Shown here piece by piece: positions 3,934-18,276 of a stretch of DNA of 64,000 bases (its first letter is position 1; every line of letters starts with the position of its first letter). Location of the stretch: positions 1-64,000 of the forward strand of contig NZ_SNUA01000015.1 of NCBI RefSeq assembly GCF_004360225.1. The letters run 5' to 3'. The notes below the pieces were generated by a model. The model was not told where the DNA came from. It saw only the letters and a list, made by a program, of their open reading frames with translations, and did not search any database. The stretch is from Alcanivorax sp. 24. GTDB taxonomy: Bacteria; Pseudomonadota; Gammaproteobacteria; Pseudomonadales; Alcanivoracaceae. Made by a program: the position numbers and the translations under genes.

Positions 3934-4122
3934 AATTACCAGCCCCATGGAAAATTTCACCGATCGGCATGGGCGTCGACGGCGCCGACAGTCTGGATTG
4001 GCGGTATCACCATGCCAATCGCCGGCGCTTTTATTTATCATTGGGCCTTTCCCGGGGGATGGCCGGGGCAGGCGGCTTTTTCGCCGCCGCGCAAGCCGTC
4101 GTCCCCACGTTCAGGATCGCGG

Positions 4123-5151
4123 ATGAATCAACGAAGAACCATCAATGTGCGGCGAGTGGTCAAGGTGCTGCAGGGGGCGGCGCGCAGCGGCGTGAGCATC
4201 CCCGAACTGCTGGATCAGTGCGGCATCGAGCGGCGCGTTCTGGAGCAGCCGGACGCCCGTATCGAACGGGACACCTTTATCCGGCTGATGCTGCTGGTGA
4301 TGGAACAGACCCAGGACGAGTTTCTTGGCTTCGGCCAGGGCCGCAAGTCCAAGCCCGGCACCTTCTCGATGATGGCTCATGCGGTGATCAATTGTCCCAC
4401 TCTGGAGGCGGCGGTACGCCGGGGGATCCGTTTTTATGCGTTGTTCGATCTCAACGTGCGCACCTGGCTGCGGCGCGAGGGTGACCAGGCCCGGCTGATC
4501 ACCGAAGTCGATCCGCGCCTGGATTTTCGTGACGTGATCATCGATGCCATGCTGTTTCTCAGCCTGCGCTTCATGAGCTGGCTGGTGGGCAAGGTGGTGG
4601 AGCCCCAGGCGGTCTACCTGGATTATCAGCCGCTCAAGGAAGACGATGAACACCGTTTCATGTTCAACTGTCCGACTTACTACAATAGCGGCGTTAATCA
4701 GGTGGTGTTTCCCGCCCACTACCTGGACCTGCCCTTGGTGAGAAACGAGCTGTCGTTGTCCCATTTCCTGCGTGAGTCTCTGGCTCAGTTGTTCGAAGGC
4801 AACGTGCATAATGTGGGGCTGCCGGCGCGTATCCGTGGTTTGCTGTCGGAGAGCTACGATGGCCATTTTCCGGACTTCGGTGAAGTCTGCCGGCGCCTGG
4901 AGATGACACCGCAGACCCTGCGCCGCCGTCTCAAGGACGACAACACCAGTTACCAGGAAATCAAGGATTCGATCCGCAAGGACGCCTCGGTGTACTACCT
5001 GTCCAAGGCGGAACTCAGTATTGACGAAATCGCCCTGTTGATGGGCTTCAGTGAAGCCAGCTCGTTCCACCGGGCGTTCAAGAAATGGACCAACATGACC
5101 CCGTCGGCGTACCGGCGGACCCACTTTGGAGAAACGAATGAGCACCCCTGA
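4123..5151 (+). CDS. AraC-family transcriptional regulator (OruR/ArgR-type)
   Basis: DNA-binding regulator, 342 aa from the preferred start. The N-terminal part matches the arabinose-binding-type domain seen in AraC regulators of fatty-acid and amino-acid genes (PF12625-like). The C-terminal ~100 residues hold two helix-turn-helix motifs, with the conserved run IDEIALLMGFSEASSFHRAFKKW split over the second HTH. An upstream ATG at 4012 stays open, but its translation (Pro/Gly/Ser-rich) is unlike the family, so ATG 4123 (MNQRRTINVRR) is chosen. The 3' end overlaps purU by 14 bp. The effector is unknown. Confidence 0.85.
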   Translation: MNQRRTINVRRVVKVLQGAARSGVSIPELLDQCGIERRVLEQPDARIERDTFIRLMLLVMEQTQDEFLGFGQGRKSKPGTFSMMAHAVINCPTLEAAVRRGIRFYALFDLNVRTWLRREGDQARLITEVDPRLDFRDVIIDAMLFLSLRFMSWLVGKVVEPQAVYLDYQPLKEDDEHRFMFNCPTYYNSGVNQVVFPAHYLDLPLVRNELSLSHFLRESLAQLFEGNVHNVGLPARIRGLLSESYDGHFPDFGEVCRRLEMTPQTLRRRLKDDNTSYQEIKDSIRKDASVYYLSKAELSIDEIALLMGFSEASSFHRAFKKWTNMTPSAYRRTHFGETNEHP

Positions 5152-6010: not shown

Positions 6011-6017
6011 GAACAAA

Positions 6018-6209
6018 TTGACAGTTGATAGTGGACAGTTGACAGCGGAAGGAAAAAGTCACTTCCTGTGTTTTCTGTGGGAGCTTGCTTGCAAGCGAAT
6101 ATTGCCAAGTGCCGAGCGAACCTCATTCGCTTGCAGGCAAGCTCCCACATCGGCTAAAGATCGCCTGTTCCTGTTTTTCCGCTGTCAACTGTCCACTATC
6201 AACTGTCAA
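6018..6209. repeat. 192-bp element: 31-bp perfect inverted repeats around a REP palindrome
   Basis: The arms at 6018-6048 and 6179-6209 are exact reverse complements over 31 bp. Each arm contains the internal near-repeat GACAGTTGA twice. Inside lies a REP-type palindrome, with GTGGGAGCTTGC... at 6077-6100 pairing with ...GCAAGCTCCCAC at 6125-6148. The nested symmetry suggests a small non-autonomous element inserted between purU and rlmM. There is no coding capacity. Confidence 0.85.
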
Positions 6210-6226
6210 CTTTCCCCCGAGGGTTT

Positions 6227-8796: not shown

Positions 8797-8862
8797 TTCG
8801 CTGGCAAGCCAGCTTCCCACAGCCTCTTAGAGCCCCCTGTGGGAAACTGGCTTGCCAGCGAA
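8797..8862. repeat. REP palindrome downstream of tusA
   Basis: Inverted pair TTCGCTGGCAAGCCAG...TCCCACAG (8797-8822) and CTGTGGGA...CTGGCTTGCCAGCGAA (8837-8862), separated by 14 nt. It has the same TTCGC...CCCAC grammar as the REP units elsewhere in the window. It may protect or terminate the purU-tusA transcript. Confidence 0.8.
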
Positions 8863-9278: not shown

Positions 9279-10052
9279 ATGGCGGGTGACACCGGCAATA
9301 CGTTGAAAACACGCTACGTGCCCATCGAGCGGATTTCCTTCATCGACATGAAGGAGATGTATGGACTCTACGAAAAGTACTATCAAAACGTGTCCCTGGA
9401 GGTCTTCGTCAAGGATATGTCGGAGAAGAGCGGTGTCTTCATGGTACGCCGGACACTGGACCGGCAAGTGGTGGGTTTTTCAACATTGAAAACCGTGCCG
9501 ATGAGCGTCGGGGGGCGCGCCGCCACCGGCGTCTTCAGTGGTGATACCATCCTTGAGAAACAATACTGGGGGGATCGCTCCCTGCAGACTGCTTTCCTGC
9601 GCTGGATGGTGCGGGAAAAAATGAAGCGGCCAACAAGAACGCTGGTATGGCTGCTGATCTCCAAGGGCTACAAGACTTACTTACTGCTGGCCAATAACTT
9701 CAATCGGTACTATCCCCATCCCGATGGTGAGCATCAGGATCTGGCGGCATACGTCGACCATTACTGCGAGAAGCTCTACTCCGACAGCTATTGTGCCGAG
9801 CGCAAGTTGCTGGACTTCGGTGACAACTATTCCTCGCTCAAAGGCGCGGTGGCACCGATTTCCCAGGAAATGCGCGACGGCAACGTCAAGATCCGCTTCT
9901 TCGAAGAGCGCAATCCCACCTGGGAGCGGGGCACCGAACTGCCCTGTGTGGGCATCTTTGATCGCGGCACGGTGCAGGCCTACCTGGCCAAACTCTGGCG
10001 TAAGCGGCCCCGCCGTCTGCGTTTGGCCGTTCGCCCGGCGGCTTACGAGTAA
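9279..10052 (+). CDS. GNAT-like acyltransferase, first gene of cassette
   Basis: Protein of 257 aa with no specific function that I recognise. The central part (VVGFSTLKTVPM..., FSGDTILEKQYWGDRSLQ) has the strand-turn-helix pattern of a GCN5-type N-acyltransferase, in which the acyl-CoA loop is followed by a helix. A conserved-looking stretch KGYKTYLLLANNFNRYYP follows. ATG 9279 is chosen over 9234 because GGAGAAGGA at 9268-9276 is a strong ribosome binding site. It is followed after 9 bp by the GH3-family gene. Inference: it transfers an acyl group to a substrate shared with the three genes behind it. Confidence 0.65.
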   Translation: MAGDTGNTLKTRYVPIERISFIDMKEMYGLYEKYYQNVSLEVFVKDMSEKSGVFMVRRTLDRQVVGFSTLKTVPMSVGGRAATGVFSGDTILEKQYWGDRSLQTAFLRWMVREKMKRPTRTLVWLLISKGYKTYLLLANNFNRYYPHPDGEHQDLAAYVDHYCEKLYSDSYCAERKLLDFGDNYSSLKGAVAPISQEMRDGNVKIRFFEERNPTWERGTELPCVGIFDRGTVQAYLAKLWRKRPRRLRLAVRPAAYE

Positions 10053-10061
10053 GGAGAGGTT

Positions 10062-11666
10062 ATGCTCAGCCAACGGCTATTGCATCTGGGGGTGCTGCCC
10101 GCCGGGCGGCGTTTCCGTACCGGGCTCTCCCATTTGGAACAGACCCAGCGATTCCGTCATCGCCAGTTGATGCGGCAGGTGGCGGCGTCAGCAGTGGGGC
10201 GGGAGCAAGGGATCGGCGAGGACTGGTCCTGGGAGCGTTTCGCCGAACGACTACCGGTTACCAGCTATGAGGACTGGCGCCTCCGGGTGGAGCAGGGCAG
10301 ACGGGAGGGCGCCAATCCGCTGATCGCCTCGCCCACCGCCCGTTACCAGCCCACCAGCGGTTCCACCTCGGCGATCAAGTGGATTCCGTACAGTCGCGCC
10401 TTTCTCGGTGAACTGGACGGCGCCATCGGCCCCTGGCTGGCGGACCTTTATCATCGTTATCCGAAGCTGCGGCGCGGCCGGCACTACTGGTCGCTGTCCT
10501 GGATGCCCACCGCGCTGCGGCAGTCTCTTGGCGAGGAATTGAATGACGATCTGGCGCTGATGTCCTGGGGCAAGCGGCTGATCGCCGGCGCCACCCAGAG
10601 CGTGCCGTCCTCGGTGGCTTTGGCCCGTACCTCCGACGATTCCCTGTTCGCCACTCTGGCGCACTTGGTCGCCGACAGCCGCCTGAGCCTGCTGTCGGTG
10701 TGGAGTCCGACCTTCGGCATTGGCCTGCTGGAAGGTCTGGCCAAGTGGCGCGAGGAACTGGCGCAAGTGCTGAGCCGTGGTGACTGGGGGGCGCGGCGGG
10801 CCGCGATGGCGGAGTCCAGGTGTCCGCGCAGTCCTCGTGGGGCGGCTTTGCTGCGAGCCTGGGACGGTGAACTGACGGCGGATTTTTTCCTGGCGCTGTG
10901 GCCGGCGCTGGCGCTGGTCAGTGCCTGGGATACCGCCGCGTCGGAGCCCTGGGCGCGGCGCCTGCAAGCGCTGTTGCCGCACGCGGATTTTCAGGGCAAG
11001 GGACTGTGGGCCACCGAAGGGGTGGTGACCTTTCCCTGTCAGGGCCGTTACCCGCTGGCGTATCGCAGCCACGTGTATGAGTTCCAGGATCCGGATGACG
11101 GAGCCATCCATGCCCCCTGGGAGCTGGAAGCCGGGCAGCGGGTGATGCCGTTGCTGAGTACCGGCAGCGGCTTGCTGCGCTACCGGCTCAATGACTTGGT
11201 GGAAGTGACCGAACATTGGCGCACCGTGCCTTGCCTGCGTTTCCTCGGGCGGCGTGGCACCGTTGATCTGGTCGGCGAGAAGCTGACTGGCGAGGTGGTC
11301 AATGAGGCTTTCGCGCGGGCGCCGTTGCCACCCGGCGTAACGCCGGTGGGCGTGGTGGCCTGTGATGACGCCGGCGATGGCAAACCCGGTTATCTGGCGC
11401 TATTGGAAGGGTCGCCGCAAGTGCCGGTGGCGTCGCTGGCCGAGCATCTGGAGCAGGCTCTTGGTGGCCATTTTCATTATCGTCTCGCACGCAATCTGCA
11501 CCAGTTGGCGCCGCTGCGGTGTGTGGTGCTGGCGGACATGCGCGAACGCTATCTGGGCCATTGCCGGGACCAGGGCATGATCGAGGGCAACATCAAGATC
11601 GAGGCCCTGCGTGCCTGGCCGGGAACCGCGCCGGCTTTCCTCGCGCCATCGCCGGTTTCAGCCTGA
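10062..11666 (+). CDS. GH3-family acyl-adenylating (amide synthetase-like) enzyme
   Basis: Member of the GH3 auxin-responsive promoter family (PF03321), 534 aa, close to full family length. In plants, GH3 enzymes adenylate a carboxylic acid and conjugate it to an amino acid. Visible ATP-site motifs are TSGSTS (98-103), ATEGV (317-321), YRLNDLVEV (374-382) and GRRGTVDLVGEKLT (396-409). The start is preceded by AAGGAGAGG. Bacterial GH3 proteins are little studied. Next to two GNATs and a condensation-like protein, it probably supplies the activated acyl or amide intermediate. The substrate acid and acceptor are unknown. Confidence 0.85.
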   Translation: MLSQRLLHLGVLPAGRRFRTGLSHLEQTQRFRHRQLMRQVAASAVGREQGIGEDWSWERFAERLPVTSYEDWRLRVEQGRREGANPLIASPTARYQPTSGSTSAIKWIPYSRAFLGELDGAIGPWLADLYHRYPKLRRGRHYWSLSWMPTALRQSLGEELNDDLALMSWGKRLIAGATQSVPSSVALARTSDDSLFATLAHLVADSRLSLLSVWSPTFGIGLLEGLAKWREELAQVLSRGDWGARRAAMAESRCPRSPRGAALLRAWDGELTADFFLALWPALALVSAWDTAASEPWARRLQALLPHADFQGKGLWATEGVVTFPCQGRYPLAYRSHVYEFQDPDDGAIHAPWELEAGQRVMPLLSTGSGLLRYRLNDLVEVTEHWRTVPCLRFLGRRGTVDLVGEKLTGEVVNEAFARAPLPPGVTPVGVVACDDAGDGKPGYLALLEGSPQVPVASLAEHLEQALGGHFHYRLARNLHQLAPLRCVVLADMRERYLGHCRDQGMIEGNIKIEALRAWPGTAPAFLAPSPVSA

Positions 11667-11677
11667 GGAGGGGGCCC

Positions 11678-12766
11678 ATGCGTATTCGAAGAGCCACCAG
11701 CCAGGACAACCCGGCGATTCTGGCGCTGCTGGAAAACACGCCACAACCTGGGGCGATGACCCTGACGTTTGAACGGCGCCCGGATTATTTTCGGGGCGCG
11801 GCCATTACCTGTGAAGAACCGGAAGTCTGGTTGGCGGAAAGTGACGGGCCATCGCCGGAGCTGGGCGCGGTGTACAACGTGGGCCGTCGCCGGGTGTGGG
11901 TGAACGGTGATTGCGTGCCAATCCGCTATGCGCACGATTTGCGTATTGCCCCCCGGCACCAGGGCAGCCGTCTGTTGTTTCGCCTGTTCCGCACGTTGAA
12001 AGCCACTTTGCATCAGGAGGAGTGGATGCAGACGGTGATCCTGCGCGATAACGGCGTGTCGCGGAACACCGTGGCCAGCGGCCGCGCCGGGCTGCCGCGC
12101 TATTATCCGTTCGGCGCCATCGAAACCAGCGTGATTTACACACGGCCTGGTCGCTTCCAGGCACCGACGGGGCTTTCCGTGCGCGCCATGACCGGGGCCG
12201 ATCTTGGCGCGCTGCTGGCGCTGCTGGAGCGGGAAGGGCCGCGCAAGCAGTTTTTTCCCTGGCTGGACCTGAGTGAGCTGCATTTCTCTCCCTACTTTCA
12301 CGGCCTGAGTCTTGGCGACTGGGTCGGTGTCTGGCAGGGGACGACGCTCAAAGGCGTATTGGGAAGCTGGAATCAAAGCGATATCAAACAGACGCGGGTC
12401 AATGGCTATCGCGGTGCTCTGCAGTGGTTGCGGCCGCTGCATAATGTCACCCGTCCGCTGCATGGCGGTTTGCGGCTGCCGGCGCCGGGCGAGTGTTTGT
12501 CGTTCGTCACCTTGCACACTCTGGTGACGGAGAACAATGACCCGCGATGGCTGGCGCCACTGCTGGAGCACGCCCTGCATGCCCATCATCGTGATCACGG
12601 GGCGGTGGTGTGCGGCTTCTTCATCCAGGACCCGTTACGCGACGCGGTGCGTGGCCTTCGCCGTCGTACTCTGCTCAGCGACCATTATCTGGTCAGCTAT
12701 GGCGAAGACCCGCGCCCGCGACTGGACCCGGAACGGATCCCTTACGTGGAAGTGGCCCGACTATGA
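11678..12766 (+). CDS. Tandem GNAT-domain acyltransferase
   Basis: Protein of 362 aa. The N-terminal half (MRIRRATSQDNPAILALLE...) begins like a classical GNAT and carries an acyl-CoA-loop-like segment LRIAPRHQGSRLLFRL (about 89-104). A second GNAT-like start, LSVRAMTGADLGALLALLE, appears near residue 168, so two degenerate GNAT halves are likely. ATG 11678 is chosen for its GAGGAGGGGG ribosome site and the family-like N-terminus. The stop overlaps the ATG of the next gene (ATGA). It has no close named family that I recognise; a role in the cassette's pathway is inferred from coupling. Confidence 0.7.
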   Translation: MRIRRATSQDNPAILALLENTPQPGAMTLTFERRPDYFRGAAITCEEPEVWLAESDGPSPELGAVYNVGRRRVWVNGDCVPIRYAHDLRIAPRHQGSRLLFRLFRTLKATLHQEEWMQTVILRDNGVSRNTVASGRAGLPRYYPFGAIETSVIYTRPGRFQAPTGLSVRAMTGADLGALLALLEREGPRKQFFPWLDLSELHFSPYFHGLSLGDWVGVWQGTTLKGVLGSWNQSDIKQTRVNGYRGALQWLRPLHNVTRPLHGGLRLPAPGECLSFVTLHTLVTENNDPRWLAPLLEHALHAHHRDHGAVVCGFFIQDPLRDAVRGLRRRTLLSDHYLVSYGEDPRPRLDPERIPYVEVARL

Positions 12767-13722
12767 AGGTGGTGGAGAAAGATTATATCGGCATGTGGTA
12801 CCAGGCTCGGCGCCGCTGCGGTATCGACGACGCTATCCACTTCGCCGTGATGGATCCGGATGGCGTCGGCGAGCGCTACTATTCGATTCCTCATCGGCAT
12901 CACGATGGCATCGGCGGCTTGCTGGTGTTGTTGCGGCAATGGGGCGTGCCTCTACCACCGGTGCCTCGCAGTCGCCAGAGCGCGTCGCCGCCCCTCTGGC
13001 AATGGTTGAGGGCTCAGGGCGCGCCGCCCGGACAGCCGCTTCCCTGGCGCCGTCTCCGTGGGCCCGAACCCCATGGTCAGGTGGAAACCATCTGTTTCGA
13101 TCCCGAAGCCACGGCGGTGATCATGGCGCGGGCGAAGCAGGAGCAGGGTTCGTTGAACAGTTTATTGCTGCATCGTCTGCATCGGGCGGTAGGCGAAACG
13201 CTGTTGGAGACGCCGTCCACCGGCAGCTGGTTGTATCCGGTGAACATGCGTGGCGCGGTGAGCCGTGCCCGGGATGACATGAACCTGTCCAGTGGCTTCT
13301 ATGTGCCGGTGGCACCGGAGCAATCGGTGGCGGCGCTGTACACCACTTTGCGCGAGAGGTTGCGCCAGCAGCAGCACTGGCGTTTCTGGCACCTGGCGCA
13401 TGTGGGCCGCTGGATTGGCGAGCGCGGGGTGGATTGGTTATGCCGGCGCCTGCTCGAGGGGCCCGGTCATATCGGCTCCTTCAGTAATCTGGGGGTTTGG
13501 CGGCTCGATCTTGGCGCCGCCGGCTTTTCCGATTCCGCTTGCCTGGCGGTATGCGGGCCGGGCAGTCCCAACCACCCGGTCGCTAATGGCGCCATTATCG
13601 TCAACGGCCGGTTGACCCTGTCACTGCGGGTGGACGCCTCTTTGACGGCGGGGCGTCTGGCCACACGAAAATGTTTGAATCTGTGGCGTCATTTTTTGTT
13701 GGAAGAGGGGGCTGGACGCTAG
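12763..13722 (+). CDS. Condensation/WES-like acyltransferase
   Basis: Protein of 319 aa that resembles the CoA-dependent acyltransferase fold of NRPS condensation domains, PapA proteins and wax ester synthases. The active-site motif HHxxxDG appears as P-H44-RHH-D48-G49: the catalytic second His and the Asp-Gly are kept, and the first His is Pro. YPVNMR (158-163), SNLG (241-244) and a late NHPVANG segment also fit the fold. It is shorter than a full two-lobed condensation domain (~430 aa). It is the last gene of the cassette and would join an acyl group to an amine or alcohol. The stop lies in heptamer-type repeat sequence. Confidence 0.72.
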   Translation: MKVVEKDYIGMWYQARRRCGIDDAIHFAVMDPDGVGERYYSIPHRHHDGIGGLLVLLRQWGVPLPPVPRSRQSASPPLWQWLRAQGAPPGQPLPWRRLRGPEPHGQVETICFDPEATAVIMARAKQEQGSLNSLLLHRLHRAVGETLLETPSTGSWLYPVNMRGAVSRARDDMNLSSGFYVPVAPEQSVAALYTTLRERLRQQQHWRFWHLAHVGRWIGERGVDWLCRRLLEGPGHIGSFSNLGVWRLDLGAAGFSDSACLAVCGPGSPNHPVANGAIIVNGRLTLSLRVDASLTAGRLATRKCLNLWRHFLLEEGAGR

Positions 13723-13838: not shown

Positions 13839-16800
13839 TTATGCCACGTTCTCGTTACTCTCCGGCTCCGCATTCTTGCGCTTGCCGGCGAACAATCCGG
13901 TTACGTCGTCCATCACCATATAGAGCGTCGGAATCAATACCAGTGTGATCAAAGTGGCGAAGACGATGCCGAAGGACAGTGATACCGCCATCGGTTTCAC
14001 CACCTGTGCCTGCAGGCTGTATTCCAGGAACACGATCGGCACCAGCCCCAGAAAGGTGGTCAGCGACGTCAGGATGATCGGCCGGAACCGGGCCCGCGCC
14101 GCCTTGATCGCGGCTTCCACCAGAGGCTCGCCATCGCGGCGGTAGCGATTGACGAAATCCACCAGAATCAGACTGTCGTTCACCACCACCCCGGCCAGGG
14201 CGACGATGCCGAACATGGACAGCAGGCTGAAGGGCATGCCCAGCACCAGGTGGCCGACCGCCGCGCCGATGGTGCCGAACGGAATCACCGACATGATCAT
14301 CAGCGGCTGCACATAGGACTTCAACGGGATCGCCATCAGCGCATAAATCAGGAACAGGGCCAGGCCGGTGCCATAGAGCAGATCGACCATCATCTTTTCC
14401 TGATCCCGGGTGGCGCCGGTGACACGATAACTGACGCCGGGATGATGGCTGAGAATGTCCGGCAACTGGTGCTCGATCAGATCCTTGGTGATGCGGCCGG
14501 GTTCGGCCACGGCTTTGTCCACCCGGGCGGTGATGCTGATCGAACGCTGACGATCGAAGCGGCGGATGGTGGCCGGGCTGCTGCCCATGTCCAGATCGGC
14601 CACGGCGGAGAAGGGCACGGCCTGACCGTCGCCGGTGCGAATGCGCATGTCTTCCAGATAACCCTCGGACCGTCGCTCCGCTCTGGGATAGCGAACCATG
14701 ACTTTCACTTCGTCCTGGCCTCGCTGGATGCGTTGCACTTCCTCGCCGTAGAACGCCTGGCGCACCTGCCGTGCCAGATCCCGCTGGCTCAGCCCGAGCA
14801 GCTCCGCTTCCGGTTTGATCCTGAGCTGGATTTCACGCACGCCGCTGTCATGGGAATTACGCAGGTCGTAAACGCCGTTGTAGTCCCGCAATCGTTGTTC
14901 CAGTTCGGCGCTGGCTGCCTCCAGATGGGCCTGATTCTGGCCAACCAGTTCCAGTGAGATATCGTTGTCGTCGGGGCCGCCCTCGCCACCTATGTGGAAA
15001 GTCCGGGCCCCGGGAATGCGGCCGACTTTCTCCCGCCAGCGCCGTGACAGCTCCGGCACCGACACCAGACTGTTCTCGCTCTTTACCAATTCCACCACGA
15101 TGCCGCCGGTGGTGTCGCTTTCGGTCCAGGCCAGCTGGGTGCGCACCAGTGGCTCATTCAGTCCCAATTCCTGCTGGAGTTCCTGGTCCACTTCGGTGAG
15201 CGCTTTGCCGATGGTGTCCAGGTTGGTCTGGGTCACGTAGGCCGGCGTGCCTTTGTTCATTTCCAGTTCCACCTGAACGAAGTCGCCGCTCAGGTCGGGA
15301 ATGAACACCACCCGCAACAGTCCGCCGACAATCAGGCCCACGGCCAGAATCAGCACGGAAAGGGCGCCGGCCAGTGCCAGATAACGATGACGCAGGATGC
15401 GCCGCAGCAGGGGCAGGTAGGTGTTGTCGACGAAACGGAACAGGCCGTCGGAGAAGCGCCGCTGGAAGCGGATCATCCGATTCGGTTTTGAGGTTTCCGC
15501 GGGAGCGTCGCGCATGTGCGCCAAATGGGCGGGCAGAATCAGTTTTGATTCGATCAGCGAATAGAACAGACAGATCACCACCACACCGCCAATGGAGGCG
15601 AAAAACTGCCCCCAGATACCGGAGACCAGCAGAATCGGCAGGAACGCGGCCATGGTGGTGAGCACGCCGAAGGTGGCGGGGCCGGCCACATCGAGCACAC
15701 CCAGCACCACGTTGTTGGTGGAGTGGCCATCCCGTTGAATCCGGGTATAGGCGGATTCGCCGATAATGATGGCGTCGTCGACGACGATACCGAGCACCAC
15801 CAGAAAGGCGAACAAACTGATCAGATTGATGGTGATGCCGAACAGCGGCAGCGTGAACAGGGTGCCGAGGAAGGCGGTGAGCAGCCCGGCCATGACCCAG
15901 AACGCCAGTTTCAGACGCAGGAACAACGACAGGATCAGGAACACCAGCACCGCGCCCATCAACAGGTTTTCCGACATCATGTTGAGCCGGCCTTCCAGGT
16001 AGTAGGACACGTCGATCATCCAGTTTACCTGGACACCGTCGGGCAGACTTTCCTGCATCCGGTCCACGTAGTCGCGGACTTCCCGGGAAAGCGCCAGCGC
16101 GTCCTGTTCGCCCAGGGCCAGTACACGGATGCCCACGGCGGGGCGGCCGTTGTGGGTCAGGTAGTAGTTGTCCTCGACGAAGCCGTCGCGGATATCAGCG
16201 ATGTCGCGGAGCAGTAGCCGGCTGCCGTCCGGGTTGGTGCGCACCACGATATCCTCGAAATCCCGGCCCACGTAGGCCTGGCCCACGGTGCGCACCAGAA
16301 TATCGCCGCCGGCGGCCTGGATGCGGCCGCCGGGCAAATCCAGGGAGGAGCGGCCCACGGCGTCCGCCACTTCGGTCAGCGTCAGGCCGTAATTGCGCAG
16401 GGTTTCCTCGCTGACCTCGATGCCGATCTCATAGGGGCGGTCGCCGATCAGTTCGGTTTTGGTCACCGAGGGCAGGGCGGTGATGTCATCGCGCACCCGC
16501 CGCGCCACTTCCTTGAGGGTGCGGTCATCCACGTCGACGCTGGACACCGCCACCCAGATCACCTCGGTGCTCCAGACGTTGCGCTGGTATACCGGCCGCT
16601 CGGTCTCCGCCGGGAAAGTGGTGATCGAATCCACCCGCATCTTGATGTTGTCCATCACCTCGCGGATGTCGTAATCCGGAGCCACCTCCACTTGCACCGA
16701 ACCGTTGCCTTCACTGGCGATGGAGACGATTTCCCTGATCCCTTCGAGGTCCTGGATCGCTTCCTCGATCTTGATCAGCACACCCTGTTCCACATCCGTG

Positions 16801-17027
16801 GGCGTGGCCCCCAGGTAGGGCACCGTGATGGTGACGTAGTTGGTCTCCACCTGCGGCTGGATTTCCTTGGTGATGGTGAACGCGGTGATGGCGCCACCAA
16901 TGATCAGGATCGCCATCAACAGGTTGGCGGCCACCGGGTTGTGGGTGAACCAGGCGATCAGACCGGTGTAAGCGTTCAGCCGTGGCGCACCGGATTGCTG
17001 GTGATCCGCATCAGGGGGTGACGACAT
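13839..17027 (-). CDS. RND efflux pump inner-membrane subunit (AcrB/HAE1 superfamily)
   Basis: Proton-driven resistance-nodulation-division transporter, 1062 aa, about the standard length. It has a first membrane helix near residues 30-52, two large periplasmic loops, and two blocks of membrane helices containing the proton-relay signature GIVVDDAIIIGES in the first half and VVVNDSLILVDFVNRYR in the second. It overlaps the upstream adaptor gene by 17 bp. No TolC-like outer-membrane factor is encoded nearby, so the pump must borrow one. The substrate is unknown; the VexF/MdtC-like group usually exports lipophilic compounds. Confidence 0.93.
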   Translation of the reverse strand: MSSPPDADHQQSGAPRLNAYTGLIAWFTHNPVAANLLMAILIIGGAITAFTITKEIQPQVETNYVTITVPYLGATPTDVEQGVLIKIEEAIQDLEGIREIVSIASEGNGSVQVEVAPDYDIREVMDNIKMRVDSITTFPAETERPVYQRNVWSTEVIWVAVSSVDVDDRTLKEVARRVRDDITALPSVTKTELIGDRPYEIGIEVSEETLRNYGLTLTEVADAVGRSSLDLPGGRIQAAGGDILVRTVGQAYVGRDFEDIVVRTNPDGSRLLLRDIADIRDGFVEDNYYLTHNGRPAVGIRVLALGEQDALALSREVRDYVDRMQESLPDGVQVNWMIDVSYYLEGRLNMMSENLLMGAVLVFLILSLFLRLKLAFWVMAGLLTAFLGTLFTLPLFGITINLISLFAFLVVLGIVVDDAIIIGESAYTRIQRDGHSTNNVVLGVLDVAGPATFGVLTTMAAFLPILLVSGIWGQFFASIGGVVVICLFYSLIESKLILPAHLAHMRDAPAETSKPNRMIRFQRRFSDGLFRFVDNTYLPLLRRILRHRYLALAGALSVLILAVGLIVGGLLRVVFIPDLSGDFVQVELEMNKGTPAYVTQTNLDTIGKALTEVDQELQQELGLNEPLVRTQLAWTESDTTGGIVVELVKSENSLVSVPELSRRWREKVGRIPGARTFHIGGEGGPDDNDISLELVGQNQAHLEAASAELEQRLRDYNGVYDLRNSHDSGVREIQLRIKPEAELLGLSQRDLARQVRQAFYGEEVQRIQRGQDEVKVMVRYPRAERRSEGYLEDMRIRTGDGQAVPFSAVADLDMGSSPATIRRFDRQRSISITARVDKAVAEPGRITKDLIEHQLPDILSHHPGVSYRVTGATRDQEKMMVDLLYGTGLALFLIYALMAIPLKSYVQPLMIMSVIPFGTIGAAVGHLVLGMPFSLLSMFGIVALAGVVVNDSLILVDFVNRYRRDGEPLVEAAIKAARARFRPIILTSLTTFLGLVPIVFLEYSLQAQVVKPMAVSLSFGIVFATLITLVLIPTLYMVMDDVTGLFAGKRKNAEPESNENVA

Positions 17028-18276
17028 GCGAGGCTCCCTGATCGTCAGCGGACTCGGCGCCGCCGTGTTCCCCCGGTGCCGTCATCGGTGCCGGGGCGGA
17101 TGGCTCGCTGTCGTCCTGGTCCGCGTCCAGATCCCGGATTTTCAAGGCCATGCCCTGTATCGGTGTCTGAATCGCGGTGATCACCGCGCGGTCGCCGGGT
17201 CGAAACACGTCGTTGGTGTAGACCTGCTCCGGCGTACTGCGTACCACCTGGACCCGGCGTATGGCGAGCTTGTCGTCGCTGTCCGCCACATAGACCTGGT
17301 CGCCGTTACGCAAGGCGACTCGTGGCAACACCACCAGTCCCTCGGCTGAGCGGCCCTGGATACGGGCGCTGACAAAGGTGCCAATGGGCAGTGGCGGCTG
17401 CTCGTCGCCGCCTTCGAGATCGTACGGATCCTGTACCCGGGCCACCGCGTAGATCAGCCGGGTGCGCTCATCGACCACCCCTTCGGTACGGACGATTTCG
17501 CCGCGCCAGATTACCGTTTCGCCGCCGATCCGCGCTTGCAGGGTCACTTGGGGCAGCGAGGGCGGCCGATAGCCCGGGCGAGGCAGATCAACGAAGGCGC
17601 TGTCCTGCTGGGATAACGGCAGCCGTATTTCCGCCTCCTTGACGCTGAAGGCGGTACCGAGTGGATTGCCGGCGGCGACGAACTGCCCCAGGTCCACACT
17701 GCGTTCCTTGACCAGGCCGTCGTAGGGGAGATGGATGCGAGTCCGCTCCAGGTCCCGTTGCGCCTGTTGAACCAGGGCCTGCTGTGACTGGATCGCGGCC
17801 TGGGTCTGTTCCGCTTCCGATTGCCGCTGCTCCAGATCCGATTTCGATATGTTCTTGCGCTGATAAAGATTCTCGAACCGGTCCAGCTGTTGGCGGGCCA
17901 GGCGATGCGCCGCCCGCAGCCGTTTTAATTCCGCCTGCGCCTGGGCGAGGGTGTTGCGATAATTGCTGGGGTCTATTTCGATCAGTACCTGATCGGCCTG
18001 AAACAAACCGCCGGCGACGAACTCATCGGCGATGCGGATGACCTTGCCGGACACCTCCGCCACCAGTTGGGTTTCGATGCGCGGTTGCACGGTCCCCTGG
18101 GAGCGCAGCTGAAACTGGCTGTGGGCGGTTTCGATCGGCAGCACATCGACGATTTCCGCCATCGCCGGCCGCTCCTCCACCTCCGGTTGCGGGCGCATGG
18201 CCGCCAGTATGGCCACCACGGCCACGGCGCCGAGCACCATGGCGGCGGCGATCAATACGAGAGTGGTTTTTTTCAT
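17011..18276 (-). CDS. RND efflux periplasmic adaptor subunit
   Basis: Membrane fusion protein partnering the RND pump, 421 aa. An N-terminal signal-anchor (about residues 5-27) leads into a lipoyl half-domain, a coiled-coil hairpin (about 100-185, rich in Gln, Arg, Ala and Glu), a beta-barrel and a membrane-proximal domain (RVQVVRSTPEQVYTND...). The C-terminal ~35 residues are acidic and Ser/Pro/Ala-rich and probably disordered. It is the first gene of a two-gene minus-strand operon. No dedicated regulator lies upstream. Confidence 0.92.
   Translation of the reverse strand: MKKTTLVLIAAAMVLGAVAVVAILAAMRPQPEVEERPAMAEIVDVLPIETAHSQFQLRSQGTVQPRIETQLVAEVSGKVIRIADEFVAGGLFQADQVLIEIDPSNYRNTLAQAQAELKRLRAAHRLARQQLDRFENLYQRKNISKSDLEQRQSEAEQTQAAIQSQQALVQQAQRDLERTRIHLPYDGLVKERSVDLGQFVAAGNPLGTAFSVKEAEIRLPLSQQDSAFVDLPRPGYRPPSLPQVTLQARIGGETVIWRGEIVRTEGVVDERTRLIYAVARVQDPYDLEGGDEQPPLPIGTFVSARIQGRSAEGLVVLPRVALRNGDQVYVADSDDKLAIRRVQVVRSTPEQVYTNDVFRPGDRAVITAIQTPIQGMALKIRDLDADQDDSEPSAPAPMTAPGEHGGAESADDQGASHVVTP

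Follow-up and report, generated by a model that had tools for sequence, protein, structure and literature searches.

Known GH3 and PapA5-type systems

Plant GH3 acyl-acid amido synthetases, such as GH3.15, GH3.12 and JAR1, are stand-alone enzymes, and the enzyme type is best known from plant hormone chemistry. GH3s are also widespread in bacteria, where they have hardly been explored, and GH3-dependent amide synthesis is already known there. In particular, OlsH, a characterised bacterial GH3 from the OlsH/OlsI ornithine-lipid pathway of Singulisphaera acidiphila, couples ornithine with free fatty acids and uses neither CoA nor ACP, according to passages of the report on it, which also leave the functional implications of bacterial GH3 diversity for elucidation (PMC12493201). 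The bagremycin and ferroverdin synthetases BagE and FevW are bacterial GH3-type proteins as well. Moreover, in the mycobacterial layout, a PapA5-type acyltransferase is paired with MmpL export.

Here, a window of 64,000 nt (the whole stretch of DNA that was analysed) from Alcanivorax sp. 24 was studied, in which a GH3 gene (protein 2) lies between the genes of two GNAT-like proteins (proteins 1 and 3), followed by that of a putative condensation-type acyltransferase (protein 4). With a probability of about 50%, this cassette is the core of an NRPS/PKS-free biosynthesis-and-export module for an acyl conjugate, possibly a lipoamino acid. The OlsH/OlsI pathway, as passages of its report describe it (PMC12493201), likewise has a bacterial GH3 that activates and forms the amide, with a separate acyltransferase nearby, whereas the cassette has GNATs and a condensation-fold protein in place of an alpha/beta-hydrolase or OlsG, together with an adjacent exporter. 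The word 'GNAT' is absent from the text of that paper. Protein 2 was rejected as an orthologue of OlsH (11.7 of 620 bits for NF052613) and of BagE/FevW, which it matched weakly (17.3 of 800 bits for NF041217), while the plant GH3.15, GH3.12 and JAR1 belonged to the same family by profile (E-values from 1.2e-30 to 9.5e-21), with low identity. As for PapA5-type acyltransferases, they share with protein 4 the predicted fold, a weak profile match and a place beside an RND-superfamily exporter; in contrast to the mycobacterial layout, no PKS is present at the cassette, and protein 4 is shorter (319 aa vs. 422 for the PapA5 chain).

These comparisons draw on protein families and folds, gene order, co-occurrence and exporter linkage, all obtained by computation. 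A GH3 and GNAT cluster of this make-up was not found described in the titles and abstract beginnings listed by searches of the open-licence literature. The GNAT-GH3-GNAT module, in which exporters have been exchanged, seems to be a new variant or perhaps a new cluster class. More tentatively, it may represent an undescribed NRPS/PKS-free class built on a dedicated GNAT-GH3 pair, usually with a tandem GNAT, in which exporters (RND, EmrAB, MMPL) and tailoring enzymes (Rieske, B12 radical SAM, AurF-like, desaturase) are interchangeable, and which would make a family of exported acyl conjugates across Pseudomonadota and Bdellovibrionota (as well as in a Myxococcota MAG without protein 1).

Gene layout of the cassette

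The four genes were separated by 9 bp and 11 bp and then overlapped by 4 bp, the spacing originally reported (Table 1). The original prediction also described a cassette without a transporter, which was correct for the plus strand but not for the locus, since the minus strand carries an RND pump and its fusion protein immediately after the cassette (13839-18276). The absence of a carrier protein from the cassette was borne out by Pfam, and neither the four proteins nor the pump genes showed carrier-protein, AMP-binding or ketosynthase domains; the NRPS condensation domains found in this genome sit on contig C10. Scans of the region gave two promoter-like sites (1.4 in shuffled sequences) and two terminator-like sites (5.2 in shuffled sequences). 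An AraC gene was found 4 kb upstream of the cassette (4012-5151), and divergent AraC-type regulators preceded protein 1 in four other loci (L005, L030, L033 and L034).

Table 1. Genes of the cassette and of the adjacent pump in the window
Feature	Positions	Strand	Assignment
Protein 1 gene, 257 aa	9279-10052	+	Open frame; predicted GNAT fold
Protein 2 gene, 534 aa	10062-11666	+	Open frame; predicted GH3 acyl-adenylating enzyme
Protein 3 gene, 362 aa	11678-12766	+	Open frame; tandem GNAT-like (weak profile matches)
Protein 4 gene, 319 aa	12763-13722	+	Open frame; predicted short condensation/PapA-fold acyltransferase with HxxxDG
RND (AcrB-type) pump gene	13839-17027	-	Convergent to cassette; ACR_tran 550.7 bits
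HlyD-type membrane fusion protein gene of RND pump	17011-18276	-	HlyD_3 47.3 bits

Protein families and predicted folds

Protein 2, the only GH3 found in the genome of the window, is assigned by its sequence as a GH3 acyl-adenylating enzyme. It passed the Pfam cut-off of 23.6 bits for the N-terminal GH3 family (PF03321, 90.3 bits) and for GH3_M (41.3 bits), remaining under the same cut-off for GH3_C (19.3 bits). The ATP-site residues T98-S101, K106, A317-E319, R373 and Y374 were invariant in all 17 aligned relatives, as were D378, D402, G405-K407, G509 and K512, and the 17-row profile retrieved plant GH3 structures, with GH3.15 as the best match. The PF03321 score and the invariant ATP site uphold the initial GH3 call for this gene.

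The two flanking proteins had both been read as GNATs, which the predicted fold supported for protein 1 and weak profile matches suggested for protein 3. Neither matched any Pfam family at an E-value of 1, although some of their relatives did: 3 of 28 relatives of protein 1 matched Acetyltransf_9 (best E-value 6.5e-4), and 5 of 14 relatives of protein 3 matched Acetyltransf_1 (best E-value 3.7e-5). A PDB profile search with protein 1 gave weak unrelated matches only. However, its predicted model (mean pLDDT of 85.9), made as the original prediction had proposed, found GNATs in the PDB (best E-value 6e-7, with a TM-score over the query of only 0.3-0.4), and the best 50 of 1,325 matches were GNATs and N-myristoyltransferases, so that protein 1 is modelled as a single GNAT-fold protein. 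For protein 3, the profile search against structures gave weak GNAT matches (best E-value 0.092), which suggest a tandem GNAT-like protein.

The usual acyl-CoA loop of GNATs reads Q/R-x-x-G-x-G/A. At the corresponding loop of protein 1, W97-G98 was invariant in 28 of 28 rows and was followed two places later mostly by R, K or Q (22 of 28); neither G nor A was listed with the six most frequent residues at that place, contrary to the usual motif. Thus, judging from the alignment, the acyl-donor loop appears unusual in not having the usual second small residue.

Regarding protein 4, the HxxxDG motif that the original prediction had pointed out was retained (H44, D48 and G49 invariant in 9 of 9 rows). 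There was no PF00668 match at an E-value of 1, no Pfam cut-off was passed for the condensation or PapA families (15.9 of 30 bits for PapA_C), and a PDB search with the single sequence returned nothing useful, while the profile reached PapA5 with an E-value of 0.016. The predicted model (mean pLDDT of 76.4) resembled epimerisation, condensation and cyclisation domains as well as PapA5 in the PDB (best E-value 1.7e-9). Protein 4 is accordingly modelled as a short acyltransferase of the condensation/PapA type, the kind of fold expected from the start.

Conservation and co-occurrence of the set

GH3 relatives were found in 18 of 194 genomes of the order (threshold E-value of 1e-10) and in 34 of 46 Alcanivoracaceae genomes (E-value of 1e-20), and the neighbourhoods of 27 of these 34 were read. 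Proteins 1 and 3 accompanied the GH3 in all 27 loci, and protein 4 was present in 25 (missing in L034 and L114). Outside the family, 23 loci were picked through protein-1 or GH3 searches, so that shares among them are not genome frequencies, and several of these stretches stop at contig ends. Protein 1 was present in 22 of them (missing in L008) and protein 3 in 17, 16 of which had it on the same strand. On the other hand, a GH3 was found without protein 1 within 19 kb and 12 kb (L042 and L043, respectively), protein 1 occurred beside radical SAM genes with no GH3 in L065, and it stood alone in L063. The tightest pairing is that of protein 1 with the GH3, followed by protein 3. Chance neighbourhood was rejected, as the set recurs across loci of the order and the family; the co-directional group of an activating GH3 with GNAT-type and condensation-type acyltransferases, as first described, is conserved, and it was found in many other genomes.

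In a class sample of 369 genomes, protein 1 was detected in nine (E-value of 1e-6) and GH3 in 19 (E-value of 1e-5). All nine genomes with protein 1 carried a GH3 (hypergeometric probability of 2.9e-13, kinship ignored), and the two genes were adjacent in seven; in the other two, each gene lay at a contig end (G358) or they were on different contigs (G491). A phylum sample had protein 1 in 6 of 398 genomes. Furthermore, a tree of 46 GH3s placed all those linked to protein 1 in one 35-row clade (99/98), with a warning of the program about long branches. Also in this clade are L008 and L042, in which protein 1 was not found, as well as L162 (contig end) and L163 (apart), whereas ten unlinked GH3s and L043 fell outside it. 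It reaches Moritella, Acinetobacter, a Citrobacter plasmid, Burkholderia and Bacteriovorax, and the set occurs in marine oil-eating bacteria and scattered relatives. The Citrobacter plasmid cluster had no megablast match in E. coli genomes. The distances of proteins 1, 2 and 3 correlated with r of 0.92-0.94 over 25 loci (0 of 2,000 permutations each), species history being uncontrolled. No known pathway was found linked to this GH3 clade, whose context now comprises protein 1 as a constant partner, protein 3 as the usual third member and a route for export.

Exporters beside the set

Of 50 loci, 36 had an exporter close to the set (32 RND, two EmrAB and two MMPL), the other 14 being without these labels. 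In Alcanivoracaceae, all 27 loci had an RND pump beside the set, with an adjoining fusion protein, 23 of the pumps being co-directional and four convergent (the window, L002, L003 and L044). Among the 23 loci outside the family, five had RND, two EmrAB (L032 and an A. baumannii record), two MMPL (L038 and L041) and 14 none of these; in the A. baumannii record, an outer-membrane factor lay between the GH3 and protein 3. An exporter belongs to the conserved neighbourhood of the set. Moreover, export is taken to be part of the function because EmrAB and MMPL occur as alternatives and because Moritella has protein 4 and the fusion protein of the pump joined in one protein.

The pump of the window was 34% identical to the co-directional pump of the genus-mate G043, for which it was the best match in the genome of the window (the next ones at 25-30%). 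Beyond orthologues of 98-99% identity, its nearest relatives in the family were 37-39% identical and occurred mostly in genomes without a GH3 match (G953, G935, G939 and G933), G936 having both a GH3 and a close relative of this pump. In the pump tree, it formed a separate long branch. For these reasons, it was rejected as an orthologue of the co-directional pumps, and, being of another lineage, it indicates that a pump was kept beside the set while the lineage changed.

The pumps scored best against multidrug RND models, under their cut-offs, in agreement with a detoxification module that would conjugate or acetylate a harmful acid or amine and pump it out. Combining acylation with efflux is a common plan for detoxification, and some GH3s of plants inactivate the compounds they act on. 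However, related clusters contain several genes dedicated to oxidation, desaturation and radical SAM chemistry, which resembles biosynthesis, and a detoxification role seems highly improbable.

Proposed function and alternative products

In the proposed synthesis of an exported acyl conjugate, the GH3 would activate a free carboxylic acid by turning it into its AMP ester and would then couple it with an amine; the acid is most likely a fatty acid and the amine most likely an amino acid. Further acyl groups would be added or transferred by proteins 1 and 3 and, in Alcanivoracaceae, also by protein 4, and the amphiphilic product would exit via the adjacent tripartite pump. We infer these substrates, the order of the steps, the product class and the carriage of the product by the pump. 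A lipoamino acid or a similar conjugate is favoured by the chemistry of OlsH, by the supply of alkane-derived fatty acids, since Alcanivorax converts alkanes into free fatty acids according to passages of PMC5174103, and by the lipid-directed accessory genes of the relatives. Among the 23 outside loci, Rieske genes were found in eight, desaturases in four, ASPIC-type membrane proteins in four, radical SAM genes in three and an AurF-like gene in one. Desaturases, MMPL and fatty-acid-hydroxylase-like genes accompany some related clusters, the two Rieske proteins scanned were nearest to a sterol monooxygenase model, and the two radical SAM proteins scanned were nearest to BchE and HpnJ, all far below cut-off. 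By their sequences, these accessory genes (desaturases, sterol-type Rieske, radical SAM and MMPL) lean towards a lipid.

The same Rieske and AurF-like relatives could instead tailor an aromatic acid, in which case the set would yield a conjugate that is not a lipid, for example an aromatic amide, and the GH3s BagE, FevW and plant GH3.12 do act on aromatic acids. Nevertheless, the sterol-type resemblance of the scanned Rieske proteins, the lipid-related genes of some clusters and the lack of any aromatic-acid gene seen beside the Alcanivorax cassette make such a product quite unlikely. Several observations also count against a lipid module, namely that 14 of the 23 outside loci show none of the exporters sought, that the window has a convergent pump whose lineage differs from that of the co-directional ones, that protein 2 is far from OlsH, and that the acyl-donor loop of protein 1 looks atypical. 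In addition, the two GNATs might only acetylate and do not by themselves imply a lipid. None of the analyses run points to a siderophore, which had been among the products first suggested.

A more specific reading takes the proline-lipid surfactant of Alcanivorax dieselolei as the product, with the GH3 joining alkane-derived fatty acids to proline and the pump serving for export. This species is a proline-lipid maker according to passages of two reports (PMC6669457, PMC5174103). A genome that is putatively A. dieselolei B5 (G182) carries the whole set, and another that is putatively that of the glycolipid maker A. borkumensis SK2 (G915) had no GH3 match at an E-value of 1e-20, but this contrast between two genomes with putative names offers a lead rather than proof. 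As a secondary amine, proline is an unusual GH3 acceptor. Moreover, the set also occurs in genomes without a reported proline lipid, the GH3 being present in 34 of the 46 family genomes, and other possible producers were present in the four genomes searched (PF13444 N-acyltransferase genes in all four and NRPS condensation domains in three). No genes for this surfactant were found named in the literature passages on it, and, in passages of an expression study, proline metabolism is equal on both carbon sources in the results and upregulated in the discussion, a self-contradiction. Altogether, this surfactant is an unlikely product, for which the cassette nonetheless provides candidate genes in oil-degrading Alcanivorax.

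Distribution of protein 4

The proteins had originally been described as a set for a small acyl-amide or acyl-ester conjugate, and the activator, the GNATs and the condensation-type enzyme are indeed co-conserved, but protein 4 is not constant. By profile, it was present in 12 of the 194 order genomes, 11 of which also had a GH3 (P-values of 1.3e-12 by genome and 6.6e-6 by genus, kinship ignored). However, in five of these 11 genomes it lay away from the cassette (G109, G104, G132, G178 and G151), and outside Alcanivoracaceae it was linked in only 1 of the 23 loci, the Moritella fusion. An obligatory linked role for protein 4 was rejected on these grounds. In G151, its neighbours were a second relative of protein 3 (41% identical), an MMPL-type gene and a small GNAT-like protein, whose best PDB match was glyphosate N-acetyltransferase (E-value 0.0045). 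In G142, the protein-4 genome without a GH3 match, protein 4 had as neighbours a ketoacyl-synthase-III-like protein, an AMP ligase, an SDR and another protein of the NAD-binding kind, which was recognized by eye.

Related loci in other genomes

A version of the cassette was found on a plasmid of Citrobacter portucalensis (L061, NZ_CP134684.1); megablast gave no matches to this plasmid cluster in E. coli genomes. The Acinetobacter baumannii sequence carrying locus L060 (NZ_CP064203.1) is 3.97 Mb long and is recorded as a plasmid. Moreover, the GH3 set was adjoined in four loci by a protein of ~900 aa, for which Pfam gave an NQR2/RnfD-like membrane part, FG-GAP repeats and an UnbV/ASPIC end in L066 and L009, the copies of L067 and L068 being recognised by BLAST.

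Relatives of protein 4 also appeared in other surroundings. In the cassette-bearing genome G151, a third locus (L198) was adjoined by an MMPL-type gene and lacked GH3. In genome G142, the relative lay in a cluster (L199) similar to an olefin/beta-lactone (ole) cluster.

Coordinates and content of the related loci and of the inverted repeats in the window
Locus	Coordinates	Content
L061	10019-19328	protein 1, GH3, two radical SAM, N-acetyltransferase, two further radical SAM, PAP2 phosphatase
L060	7162-15939	EmrA-EmrB-protein 1-GH3-outer-membrane factor-protein 3-SurE-like
L066	7017-9728	~900-aa ASPIC-type protein
L009	4215-7040	same
L067	5315-8074	same
L068	12768-15503	same
L198	8966-11594	small GNAT-like protein, second protein-3 relative (41%), protein-4 relative
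L199	5264-11030	protein-4 relative, ketoacyl-synthase-III-like protein, AMP ligase, SDR
Window	8797-8862	inverted repeat, arms 8797-8822/8837-8862, 96% complementary
Window	6076-6149	inverted repeat, arms 6076-6100/6125-6149, 96% complementary
Window	6015-6212	36-nt inverted pair, arms 6015-6050/6177-6212, 97%

Intergenic inverted repeats

All three inverted repeats of the window were intergenic and, judged by eye, resemble REP-type elements or mini mobile elements; the two with 96% complementary arms had similar core words.
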